48,923 nucleotides of DNA from a virus. The translations under genes were made by a program, and so were the position numbers. The notes beneath the pieces were generated by a model. The model ran no database searches. It saw nothing but the letters and a program-made list of their open reading frames with translations, and had not been told where the DNA came from. The stretch spans positions 1 through 48,923 of IMG/VR virus record IMGVR_UViG_3300024999_000153; one strand, given 5' to 3'. This document shows, piece by piece, positions 16,863-25,124 of the stretch (the stretch's first letter is position 1; every line of letters starts with the position of its first letter).

Positions 16863-18068
16863 ATGGGCAGAAAGTTAGCAGACTGGCTCGACTCTTACAT
16901 GATCTATACGAATAATTCGGAACCACCAAAGTTATATCATACTTGGACCGCAATCTCCACAGTGGCCGCAGCCCTCCAGCGAAAGTGCGTGATGAATTGG
17001 GGACCTATTCAATTCTACCCTAATATGTACGTCGTACTTTGTGGCCCCGCGGGGAGGGCACGTAAGGGGACTGCCATGTCCTATGGCAAGAACTTCCTCT
17101 CTCGCCTCGGTATTAAGATGGCCGCGGAGTCCATCACCCGGGAGGCATTGGTAAGGGAAATCATGAATGCCCAGACCACTGAGATTGATACCGAGACTGG
17201 GGAGATGACATTTCACTCTTCCCTGACAGTGTATGCCCCGGAACTAGTAGTCTTCCTAGGCTATAACCAACAACAACTAATGATGGATCTTACCGACTGG
17301 TTCGACTGTGGCTCTGGACCTGATGGCAAGTGGACTTATCGCACCAAGCATCAAGGTACTGATGAGATAGTAGGAATTTGGATAAATCTGATTGGCGCTA
17401 CTACCCCTGATCTCCTACGCTCATGCCTTAGCATGGATGCCATTGGCGGAGGACTTACCTCAAGGATTATCTTCGTCTATGAGCCTGACAAGTTCCAATC
17501 TTGCCCTGCCCCTTTCCTCTCTCAGGCTGAGAAGGATCTGAGTGAATCACTCTACTATGACCTAGAACAAATCCACATGATGAAAGGAGTCTTCAAACCC
17601 TCCAAGGACTTCATTGACTTGTGGGTCGATTGGTACATCAAGAGTGATCAACAACATCCCTTTGATGATCCACACCTGGCCCCTTACTGTGAACGTCGCC
17701 CAGTCCATGTGATGAAACTGGCCCTAATCCTCAGCGCATGTCATACTGACTCGATGATTGTCACGGCTGACGACCTTAGTCGTTCTATCAGGACCATAGA
17801 ACAGACTGAAAGGAATATGCCTAAGACCTTCTCAGGCATTGGAAAGTCTCCTCATGCTGAAGTCCTATCTAAGGTCATGAATGAGATAGGATTAGCAGGG
17901 GAAATCTCCATGCGTGAGTTGCAGCAGAAGTTCTACCATGATGCGGATGCCAGAGTCCTTGAGCTGATTGTTCAGACTCTCTCCGGGATGGGCTTCATCA
18001 CCCGAGTAGAGAGAGGGAATGATACCATACTTAGGTACCATAAGGTTAGGCCGGGAGGTGAAGTATGA
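16863..18068 (+). CDS. DUF3987-like replicative ATPase (401 aa)
   Basis: The N-terminal part (LADWLDSYMIYTNNSEPPKLYHTW...YPNMYVVLCGPAG) is typical of DUF3987-like phage proteins thought to be primase-helicase-type ATPases. The P-loop reads GPAGRARKG (residues 61-69), a variant Walker A. A strand ending LTVYAPEL is the Walker B region, and a winged-helix-like C-terminus follows (ISMRELQQKFYHDADARVLELIVQTL). Placed between polymerase and purZ and coupled to purZ by ATGA. No separate replicative helicase or primase was recognised, so it is the best candidate for that work. Confidence 0.75.
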   Translation: MGRKLADWLDSYMIYTNNSEPPKLYHTWTAISTVAAALQRKCVMNWGPIQFYPNMYVVLCGPAGRARKGTAMSYGKNFLSRLGIKMAAESITREALVREIMNAQTTEIDTETGEMTFHSSLTVYAPELVVFLGYNQQQLMMDLTDWFDCGSGPDGKWTYRTKHQGTDEIVGIWINLIGATTPDLLRSCLSMDAIGGGLTSRIIFVYEPDKFQSCPAPFLSQAEKDLSESLYYDLEQIHMMKGVFKPSKDFIDLWVDWYIKSDQQHPFDDPHLAPYCERRPVHVMKLALILSACHTDSMIVTADDLSRSIRTIEQTERNMPKTFSGIGKSPHAEVLSKVMNEIGLAGEISMRELQQKFYHDADARVLELIVQTLSGMGFITRVERGNDTILRYHKVRPGGEV

Positions 18069-18988
18069 TAGATGTAATTGTAGGAGGTCAATTCGGATCT
18101 GAAGGTAAGGGTAAGGTTACATATATTCTTGCAAATGAATCTATCCATAAATGTGTAGCAAGAATAGGGGGTCCTAATTCAGGACATACAGTTAAAGGAA
18201 AAGTATTAAGACAACTTCCAGTATCTGTATTAATAGACCGTGGAGTATCCATAATAGGAGCTGGAAGTTATATAGATGTAAATATACTTGAAGAAGAAAT
18301 CTCTATACATAAACCTAAAAATTTATATATAGATTCTAAAGCTGTAGTAATAAGAAGAGCAGAAAAATCATCTTTAAGAGATAATATAGGATCTACTTTA
18401 ACAGGTACTGGGGAGGGGGTATATGATAGAGTGTCTAGAAATGATACTATATTTATAAAATCTTATAAAAACTTTGCTAAATATATAGTAGATACAGAAG
18501 CTATACAAGATGTAATTTCGAAAGGTTGTATAGTAGAGGGTTCTCAGGGATTTGGATTATCTAATATTCATACTCCACACTATCCCTACTGTACTTCAAG
18601 GGATACTACTGCTGCAGGATTTATATCTGAATTAGGGGTAAGTCCTCTTGATGTAAGAAATATTTATTTAGTTATTAGAACTTATCCTATACGAGTTGCA
18701 GGAAATTCAGGGCCACTACCATTTGAAATTTCTTGGGAGCATATAGGAGTTGCAAAAGAGTATACATCTGTAACTAAGAAAGTCAGAAGGGTTGGAGAGT
18801 TTGATCCTGAAATAGTAAGAAAGGCTATAAGATATAATAAGCCTACACATATTATACTTAATCATCTTGACTATATTCATAGTAGTCTAAGAAAAGATTT
18901 TGTGGAAAGTATAGAAATATCTATAAAATCTAAAATAGATTATATTGGATTAGATTCTGAAGATTTGTGTGATAGGAGTATATTATGA
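18065..18988 (+). CDS. purZ: PurZ: N6-succino-2-amino-2'-deoxyadenylate synthase (PurA family, 307 aa)
   Basis: PurA-family GTP-binding loop VGGQFGSEGKGK at residues 6-17: the catalytic Asp of host PurA (WGDEGKGK) is Ser12 here, the hallmark of PurZ, which joins Asp to dGMP on the route to dZTP. Also visible are RIGGPNSGHT (~33-42), VEGSQGFGLS, the TSRDTTAAG loop, YPIRVAGNSGPLP and KKVRRVGEFDPE. Much shorter than PurA (~430 aa), as expected of phage PurZ. Visibly AT-rich codon use (ATA, AGA, TTA) unlike the gene before it. ATGA overlaps on both sides. Confidence 0.88.
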   Translation: MIDVIVGGQFGSEGKGKVTYILANESIHKCVARIGGPNSGHTVKGKVLRQLPVSVLIDRGVSIIGAGSYIDVNILEEEISIHKPKNLYIDSKAVVIRRAEKSSLRDNIGSTLTGTGEGVYDRVSRNDTIFIKSYKNFAKYIVDTEAIQDVISKGCIVEGSQGFGLSNIHTPHYPYCTSRDTTAAGFISELGVSPLDVRNIYLVIRTYPIRVAGNSGPLPFEISWEHIGVAKEYTSVTKKVRRVGEFDPEIVRKAIRYNKPTHIILNHLDYIHSSLRKDFVESIEISIKSKIDYIGLDSEDLCDRSIL

Positions 18989-19302
18989 AACAACTAATCG
19001 ACCTCCTCCATATCCTTCAATGTAGGAAGAATCACGAGAGTGACATGGCCCGAGCCTTCGAGCGCTTAGAGAATGTTTGCTATTACTATCTGGAGAATGA
19101 TATAGCAGATGGAGAGTCTATGGAAGATCATACCATCTGGACTCAAAACGTGGAGAAGTTCAAGATAGCTATGAACTTAGGTAGTGACCAACAGACTATG
19201 GACTTCATAAGAGATTGCATCAAGATCTCCCATCAAATCCATAGTCTTTCCACTGGGTCTAAGTACAGAGTGGACTTTATCAAATCTCTGCTAAACCTCT
19301 AA
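18985..19302 (+). CDS. hypothetical protein after purZ (105 aa)
   Basis: ATGA overlap with purZ, last gene of the rightward arm, ending eight bases from the convergent structural operon. All-helical, with a YYYLEND segment and no Cys cluster or HD motif, so it is not DatZ. Co-translation with purZ suggests a link to nucleotide metabolism; no direct evidence. Confidence 0.7.
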   Translation: MKQLIDLLHILQCRKNHESDMARAFERLENVCYYYLENDIADGESMEDHTIWTQNVEKFKIAMNLGSDQQTMDFIRDCIKISHQIHSLSTGSKYRVDFIKSLLNL

Positions 19303-19310
19303 TGACTGGA

Positions 19311-22300
19311 TTAAAAGGAGGAAGGTAATCCCTTCCTTCTCCCATTCCCTCTTGGTGCTTCCTTATAAACTCCCATAATTACCTCATAAGGATTCCCTCC
19401 ATTGTAAGCTGTATTGATAGACTTCATTATCTGATTAGTCATCGGCACACCATAACTGTACCCCATAGCCTTAGCTATGAGTTGGATATTCTTCCTCTTC
19501 TCCCTTGGAGTCAACTTATTCCAGTCAAGGGATTCTGAGAACTTCATTGCTGCCTCAGGCACCAGTGATGCCCACTCTCCCATGATCCCACCTAGTGAAG
19601 ATCCATACTTAGCACTTCCACCGATCATAGGCAACTTCTCCAGGAGTTCTCCGGCCGCGGATGCGATTGCGTGAACATCACTACCATCATCACCCTTAAC
19701 TTTAAGATACTCTCCCACTGGATCAGGAACTACATTCTCATAGCCCATCATCTTATACAACTGGCCCGCGAGGACAGTCGCCACTACATACTTCGTAGCT
19801 CGCATCAATGCCTGCTTGTTATTCACATCTGCATTCTTAATCCCTAACACGTCCCTAATAATGAAGTTGAAGTCAGCAATTCCGAATGTCTGGAGTAGGG
19901 TCAACCACTTAGTAACCTTCCCCGTCTGTATATCTGAAACTGCCCCCTTAATCCCCATGCCCTGAGTCTTCTCCACCACATCATCTGCGAAGTGAACCAA
20001 GTCTTCACCACTCAGCTTAAGAGTATTCTTCCCATAATGATAGCCAGCATTCCAACTAGCCTCCGCCACTACTCCATCCACCCACTTCATAGGGGCCATA
20101 CTCTTATTGCCGAGCCAGTCCTTTGTCCCCGTGGCCAAGCCACGCTGAACATAATCAGTCCATTCGGAGTATGCTAGGTCGAACTCTCTGATAGCCAACA
20201 CTGAGGATTTCTGTTTGGCTAAGGAGGCCTTCCTACTGAATGTCCTATCTGCTACCATCCTACTCAGGCCATAGAGAGTACTCTTGGTATCTAACAAGGT
20301 GGGTACGGCTATGATGTAAGAGGAAGGTTGTACGAATATAGTCCTCAGTGATCCACCTATAGTAGCCAGTACCAGATTCTTACTTAATGACTCCAAGCCC
20401 TTATGAATCAAGGGATTAGTATTAGCCATTGCAGTAGCAGTCGGATCCTTACCCACTATCGCATCACTCCACTTACTCAGCATTACACTTAGGGCAGGAT
20501 TCCACTCACGAAGGGTTACCTTCCCAGTTCCTGAGGGATGGGGTAACTTAACATAAGCTAACTCCTTCGCTAAGGCTGCCACTGGACTAATATGGATTTC
20601 ATCCAGGCCATAGCTTGAGTATTTCTCAATAGCTTTGAAGGGATCCAACTCAATCGGTATGTCTGAAACATTTCTCTTCTTAGCATGAGGATTAAACATC
20701 CCGTTAAATGTCTTACTCAGTTGTCCAAGTTTGGCACTCGTTGAGTTAATCATTCCCTCTCCAAGTCCCAACTCTCGGAGGACATTCAAGTCTCTGAAGA
20801 GTGGCAGATAATTCTCCCTCCCCTTCATGTCCAATAACTTAGGTATGGCCTTCTGCCCTGTGTGGGTCCTCACGTAATTGGATCTCTCACGAAACTTCCT
20901 AGTGTAGTCAAGGAGCTGTTCCTTAACAAGTTCCTCATGAGGTAGGAGGGAAGGAATGTCTGTAATCTCCATCTTCTCATAAGCCTCCTTAACACTCTTC
21001 ATATCTGCATAACATACAATGGCGAAGTCCTTCATTCTTTCAGGAGCAATCTTAGACTTAAGACCCTCCAGCCACACCTTAACCTCTGCCTTCTCCGCCT
21101 TAGACTCCGCAAGTGAATCTCTCCATGTTCTATAAAGATCCCTAATAGGCCCGCGAAAAGCATTGATCTTAGTCTCCGTAGCTGTCATGAACCTATCTAC
21201 TACGTTGGTAGTATGTTCTACTATGACCCTGCCAGTCTTAGGATCAGTCCTATCTATATCCCTACCGAAGTTACTCTTCCTATCCATCCCCACTACACCA
21301 TCTGCAAGATCTTTAGGCACAGCAGGTTTAGTCCACACTACCTTCCCATTCCTATCTTTCTTAATAGTCTGGTGAGCAATAGGTCCAGTGGGGTCCAAGA
21401 TTTTGGCTCCCAACTTATCCCCATCCCTAATCTCCTGCTTCATCTGGCCCACATTAGCCAAAGAGGCCTTGAACAAGTCTATGGAAGCTTGATCTACACC
21501 CATACTAGAAAGGTAATCATCTATAGACTTCCCAACTTTCTTAGCCATCTTCACTACATTCTCTATCTGATCTACAGCCACCCTTAGGCCAGTCACATCT
21601 ACTGACCCGCGTTCATTACCTAAGATACTTTTCTTAGGTTTCTCGAATACTAAGATATCTTCAGCCTCAACCTTCGGTCTACTAATCTTTCCATCTGCCA
21701 AGCCCGAAGTTTTAATTTCCTCTCTATACATCAACTTAAATCCTGCCTCTTCCATAGCCTTAATATGAAAGTCTGTAACTGGTACTACTTTTCCACCACT
21801 AATAAAATCCTTCATATTAATTACAGCAATACCACCATCCTTAACAACTCTAAAGAATTCCTTATATGACTCCTCATGTAATTTCTTATACTTAGGTCCA
21901 AAGGTCATTCTACCAGAATTACCAGTAGTCATTTCCCTACCAAGAGAATTAGCATAGGTTAAAGTATCTACTTTCCCTCCAAGTCTAGGATAAGCTAGAG
22001 CATTTCCATAAGTGGGAGAGGTAACTATAGCATCAACACTTCCCCCCTTAACACCCTCCATATTCCTAGCATCACCAGTAATACTTACATCAACTTTATT
22101 CCCCTTATGAAGAGATGACCATTCAGCCTCCAATTCATTAGCAATAACTTTACCCTTAAATCCATGATCTTTAATCTTCCCTATATTTCCCACTCCTCCA
22201 AAGGGATCAAGTACAATCTTAGCACCTACCTTATTAACTATATCTGCAAATATGGGAAGAAATCTTTCTGAATAAGTAGCAGGATGTGTTATAACCTTAT

Positions 22301-25124
22301 CTCCCTTACTTCTATCAATAAATACTCCCTTCATTTTATCCTTAAATACTTCATTATGAGACTTGAAAATCAGGCCTAGGTCAGGGATAGTAATTGACCC
22401 CCTCTCATTATTCATTATACTCCACAAATCCCTTCCTGCCCCATCCCCTCTCTCACCATAATCCAAGACCTCATCTCCAAGTCCACCTTCCCTCCCATAG
22501 GATTCCTCAAGATACTCCTTCTCTCCAAGATCCCACATATCACCTTTGTCTAGGAGGTCAAGTTCAGGTTCCAAGAAATACTTCCCTGTGGCAGGATCTC
22601 TGATTATCTCCCTCTCAGTACCCTTAGCATCTCGGAAGGCCTCAGCATCTTCCACCTTGTCGAAGATTGCAAACTTGTCGTCGACTAATGGGAGGGCTTC
22701 CTTAGTAATTGGAGGAGTCTTGCCTCCCCCGGAGGCGGGGGTTGCTACGTTCCGTTTTGTAACATAGGAATCTCTCCACTCTAAGAACTTCTTTGCTGCG
22801 GAGGCAGAGTCTAAGGCTACGCCCTTAGGTATTTCAGAAGGGGCAGACTCTCTGGCTGCTTTGACTTCAGCCACTGCCTCCTCACCCAATCGAATCTCCT
22901 CAAGATTCACCCCCTGAGTAATCTCCTCCAACACCTTCCAATCCTCTGCAGTCACCCCATCACTGTAGAGGTCATCTACCTCTGAGGTACCCTCTTCCGC
23001 CTTCCTCGCTTCTTCCTCCTTAGCAAGTTCATACACACGACGGGCCTCACCATCTCCCATGTCCTCAGAAACATATTCTCCCCGAGGCTTAGTAGACTCC
23101 TCAGTATACTTCCCAACTCTATACTTCTCTCCGATCTTAACAATCTCAAAGTTAGCTCCCCTGCTGGAGGCATCGGCCTGGGCATCCTCAAAGGAGGAGT
23201 ATCTCTTCTTTCCTGGAAATTCATATCCTTCCTCCTTAGCGATTCCTACTGAATCAAATTCAGGTGTTATGATCTCGGGTGTGACCTCAATTACTGGAGC
23301 AGCAGCTACCTCTTTCACAGGAGGCTCAAACCCTCCCTTAACCTTCTCATACCTAGCCCTAACCTCCTCAGGTTCTAGACTTAATGAGGAGAAGTTCCTA
23401 CCTTCGCTCGTAATGAACTGGTGGGTTTCGAACTCTCCCAACTTTGAGGAACCTTGGTAAGTTATGCCAAGTTCCAGAGAATCTAATACTTCTTGAATAG
23501 GCAGAGATTCAGTAGGAGCTACTGAGGATTTCCTAACTGGGACTTCTGCTCTAGTACCTGACGGTACTACAGGAGATTCTACAACAGGGGAAGTCTGTGG
23601 ATCAGGAGGGCTGAACTCAGGAACTTCTCCAGTCCCCTCAGCTAACTTCCTTCTCTCCAATACCTCCTGAATCTTGGCACTAGTCTTCGGCCCTATTCCC
23701 TTAATTGCCTTATAATCAATAGTCCCAATATCTTCCCCCAACTCAGCAACTATCTTAACTGCATTATTGTATCCTCGCTTACTTCCACCCTGAGCCATCT
23801 CAGCTTCAAGTCTTAACTCACTCAGGACATCTGAGTTGCCTTCAAACTTGGGTGCCGGCCCAGAAGTCTTATCCACCCTGGCCTTAGCCTGTCCCTTATT
23901 AATTTGCTCTGCAATCTTATCCAGAGGGGTGGCCGCAGCCTGGGCCTTAACACTATCAGGAACTTTGGGATCAGCTAAGACTTTAGCTTTAGCAGTCTCC
24001 AATACTTCTGGAGTAACCTCAACATTACCTTTTCTCATAGCACGCGCCATTCTTCTAGCACCCCCTACTGCAAAAGGTGCTCCGAGAAGTGCTGTATTAG
24101 CCACGTATTGCCATGCCTTGGATCTCGTGACTAACTCTTCTTCTGAGGCACCCTCAGGTGCTGAATCTCTTGCTACCTTATCAACTGTACCAAGAAAGGT
24201 TCCAAAGGCTCCCTCAATAGGCTTCAAGAGCAGCTGTCCTGCTGAAGTCCTAGGCTGATGCATACCAATTCTATTGGCCTCTTCAGCTATGTCAAATGCC
24301 TTAGCCAATCCTTTCTTATTAGTGGGAAGTGCTCCAACTCCACCTATAACCTGTCCAGCTGGGAAGGACAATGCTCCAGATCCCAATGCTACAGCTGCCT
24401 CAGGTATTCCGAAAACTGCATCAATGGCACTCTTAACAACTGGATTAACCGAGGGATGCTTAAATCCCCAGGGTAACTCTCCTACTGGAGCAGGTGGAGT
24501 AATAGATTCCTTGGCAGAATCCACTATCATCTTTCCAACTTGATCATGTTCAACGAAGTTTCCTAGAGTAGAACTGGTAGGATCAACGTCTGGAAGTAGA
24601 CTAGTCTTCTGGTTCGAACTTGAGGGTTCTCCAAAATCGTTCCAACTCAATCTTGGAGACTTTGGGACTTGCCCCTCCATAGGACTAATTCCACTCTCAA
24701 CTTTGTTTATATAATCCTGAGTCTCCTTGGGATACTCTGCACCACTAGCCACATTCCCCATACCGAAGTTATATGCAGCAAGAGCCTTAACTCTATCACC
24801 CCCATACATATCCATTAACTTCTTAACATACCTAACTCCACCATCAATATTCTGGCGAGGCTCATACGGATCCACCACACCTAACTCCTGTGCTGTCGGT
24901 GGCATGAGTTGCATCAGACCTTTGGCACCCATCTTGGACGTGGCCCTAGGATCAAAGTTACTCTCAGTCTTCACCATAGATCTTATGAGACGAGGATCTA
25001 CTCCATGTTTGGTAGAGATCTCATCAATCAGAGGATAGAAATCCTCAGGACCTTGTATAGTAGGAGTAGCCTGTGTAACGGTGGGGGGAACTGAAGTATC
25101 GAATACATCCCAAGAGAGTGCCAT
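19311..25124 (-). CDS. giant internal virion 'polyvalent' protein: lytic transglycosylase + HhH + DNA methyltransferase (1937 aa)
   Basis: Residues ~28-135 are an SLT transglycosylase (VKTESNF with catalytic Glu54, GLMQLMP, AAYNFGMGNV) that would open peptidoglycan during DNA entry. Residues ~428-494 form a helix-hairpin-helix unit (SKRGYNNAVKIVAEL, IKGIGPKTSAKI) like the Pol-beta N-domain. Residues ~911-1166 are a DNA amino-methyltransferase: HPATYSERFL, SAM loop LDPFGGVGN (~973) and TSPTYGN (~1033). The C-terminal ~700 residues are helical, like large ejected proteins. GAGGT precedes ATG. The methylase part is more AT-rich than the rest and lies between two NERGS motifs. Last gene of the leftward operon. 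Confidence 0.88.
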   Translation of the reverse strand: MALSWDVFDTSVPPTVTQATPTIQGPEDFYPLIDEISTKHGVDPRLIRSMVKTESNFDPRATSKMGAKGLMQLMPPTAQELGVVDPYEPRQNIDGGVRYVKKLMDMYGGDRVKALAAYNFGMGNVASGAEYPKETQDYINKVESGISPMEGQVPKSPRLSWNDFGEPSSSNQKTSLLPDVDPTSSTLGNFVEHDQVGKMIVDSAKESITPPAPVGELPWGFKHPSVNPVVKSAIDAVFGIPEAAVALGSGALSFPAGQVIGGVGALPTNKKGLAKAFDIAEEANRIGMHQPRTSAGQLLLKPIEGAFGTFLGTVDKVARDSAPEGASEEELVTRSKAWQYVANTALLGAPFAVGGARRMARAMRKGNVEVTPEVLETAKAKVLADPKVPDSVKAQAAATPLDKIAEQINKGQAKARVDKTSGPAPKFEGNSDVLSELRLEAEMAQGGSKRGYNNAVKIVAELGEDIGTIDYKAIKGIGPKTSAKIQEVLERRKLAEGTGEVPEFSPPDPQTSPVVESPVVPSGTRAEVPVRKSSVAPTESLPIQEVLDSLELGITYQGSSKLGEFETHQFITSEGRNFSSLSLEPEEVRARYEKVKGGFEPPVKEVAAAPVIEVTPEIITPEFDSVGIAKEEGYEFPGKKRYSSFEDAQADASSRGANFEIVKIGEKYRVGKYTEESTKPRGEYVSEDMGDGEARRVYELAKEEEARKAEEGTSEVDDLYSDGVTAEDWKVLEEITQGVNLEEIRLGEEAVAEVKAARESAPSEIPKGVALDSASAAKKFLEWRDSYVTKRNVATPASGGGKTPPITKEALPLVDDKFAIFDKVEDAEAFRDAKGTEREIIRDPATGKYFLEPELDLLDKGDMWDLGEKEYLEESYGREGGLGDEVLDYGERGDGAGRDLWSIMNNERGSITIPDLGLIFKSHNEVFKDKMKGVFIDRSKGDKVITHPATYSERFLPIFADIVNKVGAKIVLDPFGGVGNIGKIKDHGFKGKVIANELEAEWSSLHKGNKVDVSITGDARNMEGVKGGSVDAIVTSPTYGNALAYPRLGGKVDTLTYANSLGREMTTGNSGRMTFGPKYKKLHEESYKEFFRVVKDGGIAVINMKDFISGGKVVPVTDFHIKAMEEAGFKLMYREEIKTSGLADGKISRPKVEAEDILVFEKPKKSILGNERGSVDVTGLRVAVDQIENVVKMAKKVGKSIDDYLSSMGVDQASIDLFKASLANVGQMKQEIRDGDKLGAKILDPTGPIAHQTIKKDRNGKVVWTKPAVPKDLADGVVGMDRKSNFGRDIDRTDPKTGRVIVEHTTNVVDRFMTATETKINAFRGPIRDLYRTWRDSLAESKAEKAEVKVWLEGLKSKIAPERMKDFAIVCYADMKSVKEAYEKMEITDIPSLLPHEELVKEQLLDYTRKFRERSNYVRTHTGQKAIPKLLDMKGRENYLPLFRDLNVLRELGLGEGMINSTSAKLGQLSKTFNGMFNPHAKKRNVSDIPIELDPFKAIEKYSSYGLDEIHISPVAALAKELAYVKLPHPSGTGKVTLREWNPALSVMLSKWSDAIVGKDPTATAMANTNPLIHKGLESLSKNLVLATIGGSLRTIFVQPSSYIIAVPTLLDTKSTLYGLSRMVADRTFSRKASLAKQKSSVLAIREFDLAYSEWTDYVQRGLATGTKDWLGNKSMAPMKWVDGVVAEASWNAGYHYGKNTLKLSGEDLVHFADDVVEKTQGMGIKGAVSDIQTGKVTKWLTLLQTFGIADFNFIIRDVLGIKNADVNNKQALMRATKYVVATVLAGQLYKMMGYENVVPDPVGEYLKVKGDDGSDVHAIASAAGELLEKLPMIGGSAKYGSSLGGIMGEWASLVPEAAMKFSESLDWNKLTPREKRKNIQLIAKAMGYSYGVPMTNQIMKSINTAYNGGNPYEVIMGVYKEAPRGNGRRKGLPSSF
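22745..22767. repeat. 23-bp palindrome copy 6 (inside a CDS)
   Basis: CTACGTTCCGT, T, TTGTAACATAG; the most degenerate left arm. Lies in the low-complexity linker of the giant protein just N-terminal of the methylase module, read as YVTKRNVATPA. Confidence 0.85.

Follow-up and report, generated by a model that had tools for sequence, protein, structure and literature searches.

The virus record analysed here over its whole length (48,923 bases; hereafter the window) encodes a giant polyvalent-type protein in which a methyltransferase lies between two copies of the short motif NERGS (Table 1). The locus raises the question of how such a module enters or leaves a giant protein in frame, and of what the repeated motif contributes to its position there.

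A methylase module between two NERGS tags

All motifs from which a sequence-only reading had proposed this arrangement were found, in one minus-strand reading frame; NERGSITI starts at 22409 and NERGSVDV at 21617, and the giant protein contains no NERGS beyond these two copies, set against an expectation from composition of 0.0015 per protein. The best-scoring internal repeat of the protein (aa 902-932 and 1166-1196) has a score of 44, which alone is not above that of shuffled window proteins (mean 43); the 60-aa flanks of the methylase also score 44, a value that two 60-aa stretches drawn at random from this protein did not reach in any of 20,000 draws. The significance of the NERGS repeat comes from its position beside the methylase, not from its raw score, and the framing of the methylase by the NERGS pair is real and more than chance. 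In the AlphaFold2 models, NERGS itself is a low-confidence loop; both tags in the window protein and in L065, another giant protein that carries the enzyme, are such loops followed by helices. The accompanying claim that the module is more AT-rich than both of its sides also held: GC and GC3 were 0.364 and 0.255, vs. 0.478 and 0.404 in the N-terminal part and 0.459 and 0.488 in the C-terminal part, and the lowest-GC stretch of 260 codons in the ORF begins at aa 911. This AT-richness is suggestive of import, with some small genes of the window being equally AT-rich. An origin of the module from early genes gained no support from a codon-usage test, in which the module fitted the late strand.

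Table 1. Positions and strands of the features discussed, in window coordinates.
Feature	Position	Strand	Remarks
Giant polyvalent-type protein, 1937 aa	19311..25124	-	Final gene in the late block, on the minus strand
Lytic transglycosylase (SLT) domain, aa 32-136	24717..25031	-	PF01464, E 6e-26; phrog_2013, phrog_342
Upstream NERGS tag AATGAGAGGGGGTCA, aa 906-910	22395..22409	-	Same DNA as the only tag at the L002 and L004 empty sites
Module inserted between the two tags, 259 codons (777 bp)	21618..22394	-	GC 36%, GC3 25%; no counterpart in L002 and L004
Complete methyltransferase core, 217 aa, HPATY...VFEKP	21636..22286	-	PF01555, 28.1 bits; 31-row alignment; AlphaFold2
HPATYSERFL motif	22257..22286	-	Seen in the reading frame
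SAM-binding motif LDPFGGVGN	22185..22211	-	Sequence and alignment
Catalytic-type motif TSPTYGN	22002..22022	-	Conserved at 90% or more in the family alignment
Downstream NERGS tag AATGAACGCGGGTCA, aa 1170-1174	21603..21617	-	Departs from the upstream tag at 3 synonymous bases, each on the side of the insert
Helix after the downstream tag, aa 1178-1196	21537..21593	-	Confidently predicted (AlphaFold2)
C-terminal trunk	19314..21602	-	Common to L002 (95%), L003 (65%), L004 (54%) and, distantly, L091 (24.6%, E 2e-20)
PurZ-type adenylosuccinate synthetase	18065-18988	+	phrog_1211, E 2e-65; FGSEGKG; GC3 0.12
ParB_N + N6_N4_Mtase fusion, 465 aa	10519-11916	+	98% identical in three relatives
DUF6378 protein	12720-13205	+	PF19905, E 1.3e-29; PHROG label phosphofructokinase; between exonuclease and polymerase genes

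The genes for terminase, head-tail adaptor and capsid lie upstream of the giant-protein gene on the same strand. The 1937-aa polypeptide combines SLT and methylase domains, and such a union of several unrelated activities in one chain is the criterion by which a polyvalent phage protein is recognized; these are very large multidomain phage proteins with SLT and methylase domains, as here, and their domains have accreted from free-standing versions, a further likeness to the window protein (Iyer et al., 2017; PMC5512222). A methylase embedded in a polyvalent-type protein is in itself a known kind of thing. The window protein differs from the polyvalent proteins in their LPD and metallopeptidase domains, which are frequent but not obligatory; the Pfam scan found neither an LPD nor a zincin-type peptidase domain in it. 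Its trunk had no match in named phages. An assignment of the trunk to LPD38 was tried by profile comparison with the trunks of L065 and L066 and gained no support, the profiles being very thin; L066, which carries the same cargo as the window protein, has LPD23 and a sub-threshold LPD38 match.

The enzyme passes the curated cut-off of PF01555 (N6_N4_Mtase; 26.7 bits), as do its free-standing homologues with 32.7-38.6 bits, and AlphaFold2 predicts a class I methylase core with confidence, mostly at pLDDT above 90. When viral contigs were scanned for (V/I)xTSPTYGN, blind to flanks, 47 were returned, of which 45 align to the window enzyme and 2 are chance frames. Most of these relatives are free-standing, with lengths of about 200-280 aa; they start at or just before HPAxY and end where the window core ends, and since they share its extent, the module represents a complete enzyme. 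The free-standing homologues, encoded on IMG/VR contigs, are 26-44% identical to the window enzyme and have the same motifs, motif order and length; the occurrence of HPAxY, LDPFxGxG and TSPTYGN in this order, together with the placement in the tree, identifies the window enzyme as a member of the TSPTYGN family. Besides the window protein, three giant ORFs carry the enzyme (L035/L065, 2502 aa; L051/L066, at least 1534 aa; L058/L067, 2522 aa). In the tree, these three enzymes and that of the window group as a single clade (support 99/98) nested in the free-standing phage methylases; most free-standing ORFs have the block RMADHHxAxDxSKRxTY past the catalytic motif, whereas the embedded clade lacks it. 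Named phages yielded only degenerate or distant methylase matches, and plasmids only distant methylases; two short-peptide-pattern scans of bacterial and archaeal genome contigs, which miss distant kin, gave no relative, and a sequence search of solved structures gave no match. In the Vibrio phages eugene 12A10 (L007) and helene 12B3 (L008), the gene for the enzyme of this family is disrupted by frameshifts and annotated as two hypothetical proteins.

Empty sites and tag frames in other giant proteins

A search with the trunk (window 19314-21602) recovered five contigs. Two relatives, L002 and L004, encode the whole giant protein without the methylase and with a single NERGS, within the empty-site peptide ...DLWSIMNNERGSVDVTxLRVAVDQIEN...; retention of both NERGS copies by these methylase-less relatives did not occur. 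Since their one NERGS is located at the exact join, NERGS marks the module junction, which agrees with the earlier proposal that it is a domain boundary and the methylase an extra module. The module and one NERGS appear to have been gained, or lost, as one unit. The DNA of the upstream window tag (AAT GAG AGG GGG TCA) is that of the empty sites; in the downstream tag (AAT GAA CGC GGG TCA), 3 of the first 9 bases differ, all synonymously, and past these differences the next 23 bases of the window are those of the L002 empty site. The module was absent from the L002-L006 records in a search run without a known-positive control, some of these records being fragments. In L003, a different left neighbour is fused to the same tag and trunk (...SIFSLLGNQRGSVDLT), and the tag region reads LGNQRGSVDLT; in L004, the N-terminal part and the tag are close to the window, and the trunk diverges about 200 bp beyond the tag. 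The different left neighbour in L003 and the trunk divergence in L004 point to this region as a recurrent joint, with sequence exchanged nearby. NERGS as a widespread fixed motif was rejected: a scan for LGN[E/Q]RGS[V/I]D matched only L003 and one chance-looking frame in L011, and this nearly empty result indicates that NERGS itself is local to the lineage of the window. The ends of the L002 contig (L111 end, L112 start) share about 127 bp, at 19157-19283 in window coordinates; on the basis of these overlapping ends, the contig is probably a complete circular genome.

The three other giant proteins with this enzyme were picked by enzyme motif, not by their flanks, and each frames its methylase with its own repeated short motif: LYSGIPIDEIVKRLGK and LYSGIPLNKLLEVGKLW in L065, KLYDIGGATVEGVKKVAK and KLYDIGGATEEAVKRAAK in L066, and TLDSLGLQQTYEGLRDMVKR and FDFMGGQQATEALYKLWRR in L067, where a third copy, TLDFMGLQQMYEMARDIFKR, precedes another module. 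The top internal repeat is formed by the tags in all four proteins, including that of the window, and in L065, L066 and L067 the tags remain alike into the helix that comes after them. When the 60-aa flanks of each methylase were compared with 20,000 pairs of 60-aa segments sampled at random from the protein that carries it, no random pair was as good or better in the window protein, L065 and L066, and 135 were in L067 (Fisher p ~6e-12, a value that overstates independence since the four enzymes are homologous, as are the trunks of L065 and L066).

L091, whose trunk is homologous to that of the window over 513 columns (Table 1), uses LYSGIP tags; these frame an LPD23-like/HExxH-type peptidase region (0 of 20,000 random pairs as good), and a similar LPD23/HExxH-type peptidase region is framed in L098 (12 of 20,000). 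A tag is located just before the trunk in L095, L097, L098 and L065, and in degenerate form in L066, L100 and L102; L097 and L100 have one tag only, and no cargo was found ahead of their trunks. With a profile made from the trunk-proximal tags, most second tags score modestly, at 4-10 bits (best shuffled 4.7). A LYSGIP scan returned 18 contigs, mostly with short, non-giant frames; long ORFs were found only in L035, L072 and L084. The framing rule is not universal. L102 carries a different methylase (DPPF motif; phrog_24333, E 1.7e-34) at aa about 1025-1260, ahead of an LPD38-type trunk, and the two tags flanking it are dissimilar (10,014 of 20,000 random pairs scored at least as well); tag pairs were found neither in AF_016 of Pseudomonas phage AF nor in the Desulfofustis and Maribacter giants. 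A search for a donor, that is, a NERGS-framed methylase in another protein, found none.

A proposed cargo slot, and possible cleavage and substrate

We consider it fairly likely that the module is cargo in a tag-marked slot, and that the tag is a tether and preferred recombination joint, not a cleavage site. The slot, in a giant polyvalent virion-type protein, would directly precede the conserved trunk on its N-terminal side, the tag would consist of a flexible NERGS loop and then a helix, and the exchange unit would be the module plus one tag. Recombination inside the tag-coding DNA would shift the module in or out, in frame; for the window, the simplest junction would be a crossover in or near GGGTCA, at which the donor would have brought the downstream NER codons. 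A filled slot would then have a tag on each side of the cargo and an empty slot one tag. The same layout with other tag sequences recurs in unrelated giants whose cargo is a methylase of this clade or a peptidase module. A more general rule, which we put forward tentatively and rate somewhat below an even chance, would be a slot with a protein-specific linker-helix tag before the trunk and one repeat per cargo (n modules, n+1 tags), allowing in-frame swapping of early effectors, with tags alike within a protein and different between proteins. Boundary tags that mark cargo and act as recombination joints could provide a testable answer to how polyvalent proteins accrete domains without breakage, and tag pairs could serve as a sequence signature for cargo modules in giant phage proteins. 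No earlier description of the enzyme family with its tag-framed slot was found, nor of such tags in the literature; the word "linker" is absent from the text of PMC5512222, and the paper does not describe tags repeated at module boundaries in such words.

The junctions alone appear to fit both a gain in the window and a loss in its sisters, as an identical empty site would result from a deletion between the repeats. If the two-tag methylase state is older, L002 and L004 lost the module by homologous deletion between the tags, and the empty-site sequence is the exact product of a GGGTCA crossover between them; this history is made unlikely by the GC and GC3 of the module, far from those of the rest of the gene, by both relatives being readable across the site without the module, and by the other left neighbour in L003. 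Insertion with duplication of the junction, as suggested by the sequence-only reading, is not the most economical account; a plain insertion of this type (transposition-like or by end-joining, the copies having drifted afterwards) would fit the flanking 6-bp exact repeat GGGTCA and the 15-bp repeat with 12 matches; yet every difference between the copies is synonymous and falls on the side of GGGTCA that faces the insert, the insert contains no Pfam transposase or Hint domain, and a chance duplication leaves the tag frames of unrelated giants unexplained, all of which renders it highly improbable. The insert-side synonymous differences and the own-motif frames in unrelated giants imply that the second NERGS copy probably travelled with the module. 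The suggestion that NERGS could be a cleavage site fared poorly as well. Release of the methylase, whether in the head or inside the host cell, would be served by a site that stands on either side of the module and is predicted as a flexible loop, and embedded metallopeptidases have been proposed to process polyvalent proteins (Iyer et al., 2017; PMC5512222); however, HExxH is absent from the giant protein and from every other window frame of at least 90 codons, L003 has NQRGS, and the similarity of the copies reaches the following helix in L065, L066 and L067, beyond the needs of a protease site, so that cleavage at both copies is very unlikely. The combination of embedded peptidase and conserved cleavage site that defines a self-processing polyprotein was not seen in the giant protein; a peptidase of another type, or one acting in trans, is possible.

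As to what the cargo modifies, Pfam and PHROG models favour DNA methylases, and DNA is probably the substrate. Methylation of tRNA or other host RNA, which would be compatible with a tag-marked cargo slot, appears somewhat unlikely, even though the nearest solved folds are the tRNA m2G methylases Trm14, Trm11 and TrmN (Z 16.5-18.1), TIGR01177 gives a weak match (19 bits, far below the cut-off of 316.55), and no separate target-recognition domain was seen in the enzyme. Other class I enzymes follow close behind in the fold search, with scores almost as high, and this search may overlook permuted DNA methylases; N6_N4_Mtase is above cut-off in the window and in the free-standing homologues, and the PHROG matches of the enzyme are DNA methyltransferases. 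The Trm11-Trm14 enzymes combine their catalytic fold with a THUMP domain and a DPPY-type motif; the likeness observed here concerns the fold of the catalytic domain.

Possible entry into the host, and other genes of the window

The SLT domain, the location in the late block and the polyvalent relatives suggest that the giant protein travels in the virion and leaves it together with the genome; the enzyme may then methylate nucleic acid at an early stage of infection, the entering DNA being the likeliest target. Phage P1 DarB is likewise a methylase on a large phage protein, supposedly active in the first minutes of infection, and protection of incoming DNA would follow this precedent, by an enzyme with neither a helicase partner nor the DarB motif. 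DarB consists of LPD36, a gamma-class adenine methylase (NPPY/F) and a SWI2/SNF2 ATPase, whereas the window has a 217-aa TSPTYGN enzyme and no helicase domain; classification as a DarB-type antirestriction protein was rejected, with no helicase or LPD36 match and with TSPTYGN replacing NPPY/F. The near-sister phages with and without the embedded methylase form a natural pair for the question of its role at entry.

The conserved ParB-methylase fusion (Table 1) indicates that the embedded enzyme would not be the only methylase of this phage. The window also encodes a PurZ-type protein, and the serine in its FGSEGKG motif marks phage PurZ (PMC12884076). The insertion point of the gene is exactly the ATG of the gene that follows, and three relatives (G001, G004, G005) lack it at this place; PurZ suggests a 2-aminoadenine (Z) genome, recently gained, and DatZ was not recognized among the genes scanned. 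If the window DNA holds 2-aminoadenine, an entry-stage role of the methylase would need rethinking. PurZ was found in none of 18 other records examined, several of which are fragments, and consequently no general link between PurZ and the embedded methylase was found.

Near the N-terminus of the giant protein, the SLT domain is bordered by ALSWDVFD (aa 2-9) and RLSWNDFG (aa 158-165); the bordering pair is clearly similar in L002 and L004 (ALSWDSFD / SMTWDSFD), and the N-terminus of L091 contains two VDWG motifs. Compared with 20,000 random pairs, these SWDxF-like frames of the SLT domain are weak in the window (647 pairs as good) and significant in L002 (11) and L004 (3).
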